From contig CM034546.1 of the NCBI GenBank assembly GCA_020055645.1, positions 73,346,001-73,410,000 on the forward strand: a stretch of DNA of 64,000 nucleotides, in the 5' to 3' direction. The translations under genes and the position numbers were made by a program. The stretch is from Tomocerus qinae (taxonomy: Eukaryota > Arthropoda > Collembola > Entomobryomorpha > Tomoceridae). How positions within the stretch are numbered: position 1 is the first letter of the stretch; the number at the start of each line of letters is the position of its first letter. A model generated the notes under the pieces. It worked only from the letters and a program-made list of their open reading frames with translations. It ran no database searches and was not told the origin of the DNA. Below are positions 47,559 to 63,804 of the stretch, in pieces.

Positions 47559-50500
47559 TTACAACTGCGTCTCCATTTCATTGTTCACATTCGACGATGT
47601 TGTATCATTAGGTTGTGAGATTTCCAAGTAGTAATCCTGTAAAGCAACAATAAGACATAGCAAAATAATAATAGTAGCAGAACCCAACAGTTTTCACAGA
47701 ATTACAACAATAGCAAGAATGGAATCGACAATAAATTTAATTTTTATCAAGAAAGTTGTAGAGGTTTAAATAAAATTAAAATTTAATATTGTCGTCATAT
47801 GTAGAGAAAATAAACAAGAAAAATGACACTCAGTTGGGGCAGTATCTTTACTACTACATAAACGTAAGGTTGGGCAGGCGCATAGAAATATGTTGAACTT
47901 TATATTATGTATCTCCGTATTGTTTTGTAATTGAACGTTGTATATGCATTAAAAATTTGGTACTATTTTAGAGCGCTTTGTCATTATAGAAATTTTACCT
48001 TGATTGACGACCCCTGCAAGAGTTTATAGATATAAGTTGTCACAAATTGTGGTTGAGGTCTGTCGTTTGGTTTACATTTCCAGCATTCCATCATAAATTT
48101 GTGTCTGTATAAAATAATCTAAGGCTGTAATGAAGTTGAATAAGGCAGGGAATATTAAATAAAAAATATTTTCTCAGCTTACAAAGATGTAGTAGCAAAT
48201 TTTGCTTTGGGTAGTCGTAAATCATTTTGCAGTTCTTCCATAAATGAAATATTCCACGAATATCCTGGATAGGGAACTTCTCCAAGGGAAAATATTTCCC
48301 AAATCGTGATACCAAATGACCAAATATCAGACTGAATTGAAAAAGTAAGATCTCGCAGACTTTCAATTGCCATCCAACGCCAAGGTAGTGGCTCCTAAGT
48401 CAGAAAATAATATATGGTGGGACCTTAAATACTAATTAGTATGCATTCAATGTAGGTATGAATGTACAGGGTGGACCAGAATGAAATCTTACACTTATTA
48501 TGACCCATTTATTGTAAGGAGGTTACCTTAGCTAAGGAAGAATTCAATTCTATTTCATTCTGGCCCACCCCTTACATGTCTAAAAGAATTTTAAATATTG
48601 TAGCCAGTGAGTTACCTGACTTTTCTTGACGTAGTTACTATACTCGTAAAGTTTTCGAGAGAGTCCAAAATCTGTCAGCTTGGCAACATTTTGCTCACAC
48701 AGTAAGACATTCCTGGCAGCTAAATCTCCATGGATTACCTATTTTTTGATAAAAACTTGCTTATTAATATTTCAAAAATCACTACATACATAGTTTCATT
48801 GATTCTACCTTTTTGTTACTAAGATATTCCAAGGCCAAAGCTATTTGATACGTCCAATTGAGTAAATTATCAGTGTTTATGTTACCATCATCATTTAAAG
48901 TTCTAAATGAGATTCAATAAAATATGTTTCCGAAAAATAGTAAATGAAATAAAATAATTTTAAAACATTAATTCAATTTTACTTTAAATGATGGAAAACA
49001 TCATTATGTATCAAAGACGTAAATTTATCTCGTGATTGTCGCAGATATTCTTGCAGATTTCCAAGAGGGCATAACTCCACAAAAATGTACACCAACCCTG
49101 CATAAAATGGAGGGAGAAATAATAGGCTGTTTTGTTTAGCGTAATTAAACAATTGAGTAAAATTAATTATTTTACCCAATTACCCACGTATATTAATACA
49201 AAATGAATAAAACTAAATAGCAGATGGAAAGGCTTGCATTTACTATGCCAGTTTATTGCGATGTATATGAAGACTAATCATATTTATGTAACTAAATTCG
49301 TTATACTTTGCAGTTAAACAAATTCTATTAGGGGCACCACAAATTATAGGATTACGATCTTGTACTATCTACATAAATTTTGAATTTTAAAAGAGCCTGC
49401 ATTATTAGCACTGCTAATTATATTTACCTTTACGTAATTCTGTAGTGTGAGCACCAACAAGGTTGACTATGTATGGATGCTTTCCTGTGTAGATATTAAT
49501 TTTTAATTCAGATAGAAGTGATATTAAATATTGCTTATCGGCTCCTGGCTTTGTAGATTTTACAGCTACAGGAACGCCATTTACAACTCCCTTGAAAACA
49601 ATTCCAAATGCTCCCATTCCCAAAATACTCGTTCTATCTAAATTTTAAACTTCAATGTATTTTATGTATATATTACAATCAATATTAAGGAAGTGATATT
49701 TCTTGAGTAATAAATTCACAGTAATTAGGAGTGATAAATAATTCCTACCTACGCTGTAGCAATTGCAGGGGATCTCTACCGATTCATCGTAGGGAATATT
49801 GTCTGGATTTTTATCAGAATTTTTAAAAGAAGCTCCTCTTTTGAAATACTCGATTTCATGACTAGAAAGTCCTTCCTTAAATAAATAGCAAAAATATTTT
49901 AACTTATGTTTTAAATTTTTGACATTATTATTGTTTATTCAACATAATATTATAGTTGATTACAATTTTCAAACTTCTTCTGGCATACACAACGGAAAGG
50001 GCAAGGACAAAGCCACAAAAGACAATTATTGCACAAATCCATTCCCATCTTATTGACCATGTATAATCTCGTTCTGGTGTATCTAGATCTTCAGTCGGCT
50101 GATGGGAGCTAAATGCAAAATTTACAGTTTTAAGAAGTGAATTCGTGATATTGTCACAATCCCCAAGGACGTCGTCAAAATGAACAAAAGAAAGAGCAAC
50201 TCCAAGTAAGCCGTTCGCATGGACCAAAGAACACTTTTCGTAAATGCTTTTCGGGTTTTCAAATGTCAGGAATTGATTTGAGAATCTTGCAAATGGAACT
50301 TTAGCTTTTCGATCCCAGAATGTTTTCCATCCTCCATTTTTTACAAGTATAGTCTTACAGATCTAAGTTTTAATAAACAATACAGGTTTTAATTATTTCT
50401 ATTTATAGCATGTACTTCGACAATGTTTACGAAAATGTGAAAGGTTGAGATTTAATAATAATTAGTACAGTTTCATATTTTCGCGCAATCTACAATAATA

Positions 50501-62600: not shown

Positions 62601-63804
62601 TTTCATAAACACTTTGTGGATTGTCAAAACTAATCCATTTGTCGCCTTTTGCAATAAATGGAACCTTTGCATAATTATCCCAATACATTTTCCAGTTTTC
62701 ATTGCCAAGTACTTGTAAGCAAATCTAGTATTGAAAACAGTTTAGAATTAATAAAATAAATCATAATATACTGTCAATATTGAAATCATCCTAAATTAGT
62801 TTTTTTCCTTGCAAAAGGAATAGCAGGATGTCATTTGACATTTGATGACACTCTCCATTGGAACGTTATGATATACGTTACTCTATACAATATATACTTA
62901 TAAATCATCTTGTTGTGTTATAGTAGAAATGTTATACTTAATATAGTATTAAATACTTACTTTACAATAAGGCAAGTTTCCATTATAAATAGCGACGCTG
63001 TTCAAACCAAAAGGAAATTGGGAGGATTCATCACTGCTTATCAGACGATATTCCAATCCGTGAAAAACAATTCCCAAAACGATTGATTTTGGTTCCAGTC
63101 GTTTTTCGATTAAGAGGAAGGCTAATATTGACCAAATGCTTTCGTCGTTTGAATGAAGTGGAGCTTGATGAATAGCCTCATATTTACCATCACGATAAAA
63201 ATAGTAAATCCGTACCACTACAAAATCCAATATTCTGCTGACACTAGCAATATCTTGGTATTTATCTGTGAATGTCTGATTTGAGTAACTTTCGACTTCT
63301 GTACTCAAAAGAAATCCCATGCCGTGAAACTCATCTCTCAAAATCTAAAAATAAACTTTAGTTAATTGCTTGACAACTTTCGTGTATTTTAAAGATATTC
63401 ATGTAATTTAATGCATTTACCGTTATAAATGAGGAATACTCATTTCCAGTCGAGTGAAAATAGAATTGTGGTCCAATAAGTAAACCGTCATAACCGTTTT
63501 CGCTAAATTTAGATAACAAACTTAATGTGATTTAAGTTATTAAATAGTAGTAAATCTATGTCACCAATTCCTACTTAAATCGTCACCTTACGTACGTAAC
63601 AATAATACCAATTACTAAATTATGCCTCTTACTTAACAATGGTTTTCATGTTCATTGCAAATTTGTATTTATTTTTCAACGACGTTGTTAAATTTTTCAC
63701 GAATGCTAATGCGCTTTTGGATTCTAGTTGAGTCACTGCGACTTCAAGCAGAATCTTCAAATGTGGAAATTTTAATTTCAATGCTGCGGTTTTGTTCAGT
63801 TCAC
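56655..63804 (-). CDS. Receptor tyrosine kinase 2 with GH18-Ig-GH18 ectodomain, first two exons outside window
   Basis: Tandem paralogue of kinase gene 1. Exons 3-21 are all present and open: 63804-63633, 63502-63421, 63344-62961, 62724-62293, 62186-61964, 61807-61730, 61649-61494, 61414-61243, 61165-61093, 61014-60631, 60487-60086, 59991-59865, 59740-59531, 58675-58561, 58480-58387, 58320-58198, 57974-57763, 57685-57580, 56732-56655 (about 1206 aa in window). Intron phases are identical to gene 1. Size changes are in multiples of three (exon 6 432 against 435 nt, exon 12 384 against 390, exon 13 402 against 399), so the gene is under coding constraint. The glycine-loop exon (LGMGAFG...VAVK) and the exon with WMAIES encode the same residues as in gene 1 over 64-66 positions, while exons 3 and 5 of the first GH18 domain differ at many positions. 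HGDLAARN and DFG are kept. Several introns carry private transposons. Confidence 0.87.
56796..57063. mobile_element. 268-bp hAT-like MITE with long inverted arms, intron 20 of kinase 2
   Basis: Ends CATAGTAGGGCTTAGACAGG and (reverse complement) CAGAGTAGGGCTTAGACAGG, with arms of about 90 bp (GGTCCAACATGCG / CGCATGTTGGACC). Perfect 8-bp duplication TTCACAGG at 56788-56795 and 57064-57071. It is absent from kinase gene 1, where an uninterrupted TTTTCACAG stands. Confidence 0.9.
57318..57530. mobile_element. GGCGGTA-ended MITE, intron 20 of kinase 2
   Basis: Inverted ends ATTGGCGGTATATGGTTAAG and (reverse complement) AATGGCGGTAAGTATATGG, continuing through CCTTCTGTT and TTCATATTCA. About 210 bp. 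Not found in kinase gene 1. Confidence 0.65.
58850..59397. mobile_element. 548-bp TA-flanked transposon (Tc1/mariner-like), intron 15 of kinase 2
   Basis: Perfect inverted ends CACACTTAGAAATCC, flanked by TA on both sides (58848-58849 and 59398-59399). The interior is full of TTAACATT/TTAACAGT motifs. It carries a tRNA-like segment at about 59093-59165 (GTGGTTCAGTG A-box-like, GGGATCGCTTCC B-box-like). No transposase. Absent from kinase gene 1. Confidence 0.8.

Follow-up and report, generated by a model that had tools for sequence, protein, structure and literature searches.

Can a chitinase fold that has lost its catalytic residues serve as the extracellular sensor of an animal receptor tyrosine kinase (RTK), and, if so, what might it sense? 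The question is raised by two tandem genes, here termed A and B, on the reverse strand of a 64,000-nucleotide window from the springtail Tomocerus qinae (GenBank assembly GCA_020055645.1, contig CM034546.1, positions 73,346,001 to 73,410,000; coordinates below are those of the window). They occupy 47559-63804, a span bounded by the gene A stop codon and the acceptor site of gene B exon 3, and combine two domains of the GH18 chitinase family, an intervening immunoglobulin (Ig) domain, a membrane helix and a tyrosine kinase; that this layout is real in both genes we hold with high confidence. It is probable, if well short of assured, that they encode RTKs of the PVR (PDGF/VEGF-receptor-related) type, in which the Ig array was mostly exchanged for a duplicated chitinase-like module whose ligand would be a protein or something else other than chitin.

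Gene A (47559..54544) comprises 21 predicted exons joining into a single open frame of 1,311 amino acids, with GT-AG boundaries at 20 of 20 predicted introns. Pfam profiles and hydropathy recover in the spliced protein the order signal peptide, GH18, Ig, GH18, single membrane helix and tyrosine kinase, as the initial annotation had read it from the exons. The predicted signal peptide (residues about 1-20, 54485..54544) has a hydropathy of 2.43 over residues 1-19. The first GH18-like domain (GH18a; exons 2-6, 52470..54327), taken alone, matches PF00704 at 3.4e-32 and the insect chitinase OfChtIV at 2.1e-30 (6jm7), while the second (GH18b; exons 9-13, 50192..51551), likewise alone, matches PF00704 at 2.2e-27 and OfChtIV at 5e-20 (6jm8) and 2.2e-19 (6jm7); their profile scores of 112.8 and 97 bits, respectively, lie far above the cut-off of 29.6. 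The Ig domain (exons 6-7, 51919..52298) is detected as I-set at 1.5e-7 with the linker alone, and Ig domains of titin, Robo, RPTP, VEGFR2 and FGFR are among the best 60 of its 109 matches; with the whole protein, I-set scores above its own Pfam cut-off and Ig_3 under its own. The membrane helix (residues 933-951, 49982-50038) is placed by hydropathy, and the kinase domain (exons 15-20, 48053..49632) matches PF07714 (PK_Tyr_Ser-Thr) at 2.1e-71 in the joined protein. A C-terminal tail is encoded by the last exon (47559..47636), whose DNA is 92% identical to that of gene B. Each gene has 13 N-glycosylation sequons in the ectodomain against three in the remainder, a portion shorter by a factor of 2.2 to 2.5.

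Two of the critical connections lie within exons. In exon 13 (49964..50362 in gene A), a single unspliced frame leads from the last part of GH18b through the membrane helix to the first juxtamembrane residues, and in exon 6 GH18a similarly ends and the Ig domain begins. Since both exons are unspliced in both copies, these joins are independent of splice prediction. The Pfam matches, the hydropathy profile and exon 13 together uphold the earlier claim that a single membrane helix links a chitinase-like module to a tyrosine kinase.

Gene B (56655..63804, exons 3-21, 1,207 amino acids in the window) repeats the layout of gene A from exon 3 onward; its exons 1-2 lie beyond 64000. The initial annotation had assigned the complete layout to both tandem genes, and this stands in full for gene A and from exon 3 for gene B, only gene A showing the beginning of GH18a and the signal peptide before it. 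The GH18a of gene B (exons 3-6, 62293..63804, with exon 6 also starting the Ig domain) is 79% identical to its counterpart; most of the Ig domain is encoded by exon 7 (61964..62186), GH18b and the membrane helix (about 60104-60160) by exons 9-13 (60086..61649), and the kinase by exons 15-20 (57580..59740), which is 97.9% identical in amino acids to that of gene A with a ratio of nonsynonymous to synonymous divergence (dN/dS) of 0.06. Two introns are conspicuously longer in gene B. The last one is 847 bases long where that of gene A has 362, and holds a 94-base inverted repeat (56796-57063, 94% complementary, 80 bases between the arms) resembling a miniature inverted-repeat transposable element; the intron before exon 16 measures 855 against 330 bases, with a 22-base inverted repeat (58843-59404, 95%, 518 bases between the arms), and is probably the site of another insertion.

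The kinase points to the receptor family. Against solved structures, that of gene A matches PDGFRA (1.3e-64), VEGFR2 (1.2e-61) and KIT (1.5e-58), and the best 60 of its 2,183 matches are PDGFRA, VEGFR2, VEGFR1, KIT, FLT3 and CSF1R (the last in part as chimaeras with FGFR1), together with one double-kinase EGFR construct that heads the list because its two kinase matches add up. The glycine loop, the VAVK lysine, the alpha-C glutamate, the catalytic-loop aspartate, DFG and the activation-loop tyrosines (YEYSNY) are all in place, as expected of an active kinase. The kinase insert looks short in the alignment, though solved PDGFR constructs are often trimmed there. HGDLAARN starts at residue 1142 in gene A and 1038 in gene B; according to PMC11024359, the decapod PVR motif has a conserved HGDLA at its start, from which a single shrimp receptor departs. 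Of the defined positions in the decapod consensus sequences given there, 35 of 55 are shared with PVR1, 28 of 41 with PVR2A and 30 of 52 with PVR2B. The solved-structure matches and this consensus, rather than a tree, suggest a kinase of PVR type. Like the arthropod PVRs (RTK class III/V), the springtail proteins combine such a kinase sequence, including the HGDLA reported for decapods, with a single helix and an extracellular Ig domain; they differ in having one Ig domain and two GH18 domains, whereas the PVRs examined in PMC11024359 have two to five Ig domains. Thus, the receptor would be PVR-like by its kinase and not by its ectodomain.

Among solved sequences, the GH18 domains most resemble a secreted enzyme. 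OfChtIV, an insect chitinase of group IV, is the closest to both in phmmer searches (for GH18b, among the best 60 of 89 matches), differing in that the springtail domains are tethered and have lost the catalytic motif; this resemblance, like the PVR signature of the kinase, is in keeping with an arthropod. The initial annotation had compared them to the insect IDGFs, a likeness that fades in these searches: by match strength rather than a tree, GH18a reaches IDGF-2 at 2e-08 compared to 2.1e-30 for OfChtIV, and IDGF-2 is not in the best 60 of the 89 solved-sequence matches to GH18b. Aligning the four GH18 domains as proteins shows 114 of 340 aligned residues to be identical between the two domains of gene A, whose introns coincide at columns 2, 64, 121, 152 and 290, with phases 1, 1, 2, 0 and 0; the exon 9/10 junction had been set by hand before this comparison, guided by the other gene copy and without reference to GH18a. 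The five coincident introns imply either that one domain gave rise to the other or that both descend from a single gene carrying them.

The catalytic motif is lost in all of them. The DxxDxDxE catalytic motif is absent from GH18a and GH18b of both genes in the alignments: DGLDVDWE of OfChtIV corresponds to DGLHIGPQ in GH18a of gene A and DGLLIGPQ in that of gene B, while its counterpart in GH18b has no acidic residue and reads HGLYLANT by eye, the phmmer register looking shifted at this point. Comparison of gene A with OfChtIV further reveals replacements in GH18a and GH18b, respectively, of the strand 1 Trp by Ser and Arg, of the GGW after strand 3 by ALM and RLK, of the strand 7 Arg by Leu and Tyr, and of the strand 8 Trp by Arg and Ser; the Tyr after strand 6 is retained in both. 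These Trp, Arg and Tyr positions belong to the cleft. Markers of the fold persist as CTHL and DDF.G.C in GH18a and as CTHL and a weaker DD..G.C in GH18b. With the catalytic motif gone, along with most cleft residues inspected, the two domains are not expected to cleave chitin and are unlikely to bind it in the usual GH18 cleft; the suggestion of the initial annotation that the receptor senses chitin fragments is therefore not supported. A precedent for such repurposing is the mosquito GH18 protein AgBR1, in which the catalytic Glu is likewise changed to Gln and one Asp to Ala, and which binds neither chitobiose nor chitinhexaose (PMC12090808).

By dN/dS, the copies differ most in GH18a. Identity between them is 86-99% in exons and 80-96% in introns, and over 1,205 codons dN/dS (Nei-Gojobori) is 0.28: overall, selection between the copies is purifying. 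By region, the ratio is 0.59 in GH18a (from exon 3), 0.23 in the Ig region, 0.26 in GH18b, 0.13 in the membrane and juxtamembrane part and 0.06 in the kinase; with counts cut to whole numbers, the excess in GH18a gives a Fisher p of about 1e-6 over the kinase and 0.012 over GH18b. Amino acid changes are denser in the 12-residue stretches after the barrel strands, which take 26 of the 63 changes in GH18a (matched in 8 of 296 circular shifts) and 21 of the 44 in GH18b (matched in 2 of 350); the strands were placed by homology and by eye, and the face following them is the substrate-binding side in GH18 enzymes. Diversifying selection on this face was considered and dropped: synonymous changes are also denser in the loops and dN/dS is practically equal inside and outside them (0.62 and 0.55 in GH18a, 0.25 and 0.24 in GH18b), hence positive selection at the binding face is not claimed. 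Nor is anything claimed from the 40-codon sliding windows over GH18a, where the ratio exceeds 1 in 3 of 13, these resting on 0.5 to 3.5 synonymous changes, and is undefined in one with zero synonymous change.

These features can be accommodated in a model where each gene would yield a single-pass RTK of the PVR type, in which the ligand-binding Ig array was largely replaced by a GH18 module, the latter being duplicated with one Ig domain between the copies. The two dead barrels would bind a non-chitin ligand, most likely a protein; its binding would pair two receptors, whose kinases would then phosphorylate each other on the tyrosines of YEYSNY. PVRs function in growth, migration and blood-cell-type signaling, and a signal of this kind would follow here too. 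As the outermost GH18 domain changes faster than the kinase, the two gene copies may be specializing for different ligands. Several points weigh against this model. The whole evidence is the genomic sequence of two paralogous copies from one genome; the kinase motif ends in PWRW, compared to PxKW in the decapod PVR consensus (excerpts of PMC11024359); and the Tyr after strand 6 survives in both GH18 domains, while a glycan other than chitin may remain compatible with the lost cleft residues. The near-equal dN/dS inside and outside the loops counts on the same side, as does relaxed constraint, which may, as an alternative to adaptation, account for the higher ratio in GH18a.

The retained Tyr and the plainly retained fold are also what would be expected if the domains still bound chitin or another glycan in the manner of chi-lectins, with the receptor sensing cuticle or fungal fragments. 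YKL-40 and some other dead GH18 proteins do bind chitin. We nevertheless regard this as unlikely, given the replaced catalytic motif and strand 1, 3, 7 and 8 cleft residues of gene A relative to OfChtIV, and the failure of AgBR1, in the excerpted account, to bind either oligosaccharide with just two substitutions in its motif. As the initial annotation also proposed, the dead domains could instead dock other GH18 proteins, such as a soluble chitinase or an IDGF-like factor, so that the receptor would read the presence of chitinases; the duplicated module is consistent with this, and chitinase-like proteins such as IDGF2 act as secreted signals. This possibility too is doubtful, one springtail genome being reported without obvious IDGFs in the covered part of PMC5644144. 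Less plausible again is that the inactive chitinases are an integrated bait, with microbial or fungal proteins that evolved to target host chitinases striking the tethered copies and so triggering a PVR-type blood-cell signal; if true, this would define a new animal receptor class, independently evolved in parallel to the pathogen-induced plant receptor CHRK1.

It is highly improbable that gene prediction alone has linked two distinct products at the locus, one a kinase and the other a secreted chitinase-like protein. The exon junctions of both genes are indeed predictions from genomic DNA, and the membrane-to-kinase join depends on two predicted introns, 13 and 14. Some junctions were set by hand: in gene A, against gene B, the end of exon 9, the start of 10 and the end of 14; in gene B, by gene A numbering, the starts of 3, 8, 10 and 21 and the ends of 9, 12 and 13. 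However, the exon 13 (GH18b-helix) and exon 6 (GH18a-Ig) joins need no splicing in either copy, phases are consistent throughout, and among the six top hydropathy peaks of gene A the sole one after the helix falls inside the glycine loop of the kinase. The layout also exceeds what chance would give: besides the dN/dS of 0.28 and the coincident introns of the two GH18 domains, genes A and B have 18 introns in corresponding places, with exon lengths the same or at most 6 bases apart. Recently duplicated pseudogenes or an assembly artefact, which the tandem arrangement and the introns 80-96% identical might evoke, are the least credible of all, in view of zero internal stops or frameshifts in 1,311 and 1,207 amino acids, the dN/dS of 0.28, and intron lengths that differ, two being much longer in gene B.

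The nearest architectural parallel is in plants. Tobacco CHRK1 has a chitinase-related ectodomain without the catalytic Glu, a membrane location and a kinase, and is induced by pathogens (excerpts of PMC10573068); the review PMC5485988, in the part covered, puts the number of plant sequences combining GH18 with a kinase at 91 and instead predicts an enzymatically active ectodomain for them. CHRK1-type proteins share with the springtail receptors an extracellular catalytically dead GH18 domain, a membrane helix and a kinase, but theirs is a plant receptor-like kinase, whereas the best matches here, in searches that included no direct comparison with plant kinases, are class III/V animal tyrosine kinases. 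CHRK1 has a single GH18 domain and is not known to carry an Ig domain. The kinase here being of the animal PVR type, the origin of the springtail receptors would be independent. IDGFs, YKL-40/CHI3L and AgBR1 resemble them in using a catalytically dead GH18 fold for signaling, but are soluble proteins and not receptors, IDGF-2 moreover being the weaker match to GH18a. Venus kinase receptors (PMC4026697, in excerpt) are likewise invertebrate RTKs with a borrowed binding domain, in their case a Venus flytrap ectodomain with an insulin-receptor-like kinase.

No animal receptor with GH18 and a kinase is found among the matches listed in open-access PubMed Central (PMC) text, mostly titles and starts of abstracts, which accords with the remark in the initial annotation that no RTK class of this layout came to mind; the portions of PMC12355970 and PMC4707873 covered add nothing on GH18 receptor kinases beyond CHRK1. 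Automatic annotations of the layout may well exist in sequence databases, which, with subscription papers, lie outside this literature scope. The springtail Holacanthella has an expansion of unassigned chitinases, including Cht19, in which neither of two GH18 domains has the Glu (PMC5644144, in part); these proteins could represent the extracellular part of similar receptors, but the word kinase is absent from the main text of that paper. In a collection of bacterial and archaeal genomes, 13 pattern matches yielded zero relatives by tblastn with the first 409 amino acids of gene A as query. To our knowledge, the receptors of dead chitinases acting as free signals are mostly unsettled. Here such a fold sits on a receptor itself, fused to a PDGF/VEGF-receptor-type kinase; this would widen the range of folds with which animal RTKs sense their surroundings, illustrate ectodomain replacement within an Ig-built receptor family, and provide a concrete bait for finding the protein partner of a chitinase-like domain.

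The remainder of the window holds several further features; Rfam (gathering threshold) and ARAGORN detect no structured RNA or tRNA in it. A PPP4R2-like frame (315-1406, reverse strand; Pfam 1.1e-17) continues without a change of frame into four C2H2 zinc fingers, an unusual fusion; 1221-1406 on the same strand is likely its upstream exon, the PPP4R2 match there being merely E 0.009. Two related multi-helix frames (19463-20872 and 35082-36838, forward strand) have no meaningful Pfam match and by eye resemble, at a guess, insect-type gustatory receptors, the second seemingly broken by a repeat-like insert. A 21-base unit repeated in tandem about 50 times (26462-27522, 97% matching) is open in more than one frame, in several in fact. 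NHL repeats are encoded at 41601-42077 on the forward strand (Pfam 6.2e-20), and by eye they seem to run on in an overlapping frame as far as 42440. Finally, a seven-member family encodes small secreted-looking proteins of about 235 amino acids with a hydrophobic N-terminus and a basic C-terminus, without a Pfam match in the single member tested. Six copies are on the reverse strand (4202-4722, 7379-8359, 11142-12318, 22330-23295, 27881-28797 and 31880-32813), the first lacking its last exon beside an assembly gap at 3971-4070, and one is on the forward strand (45097-46095); one member of the family adjoins gene A.

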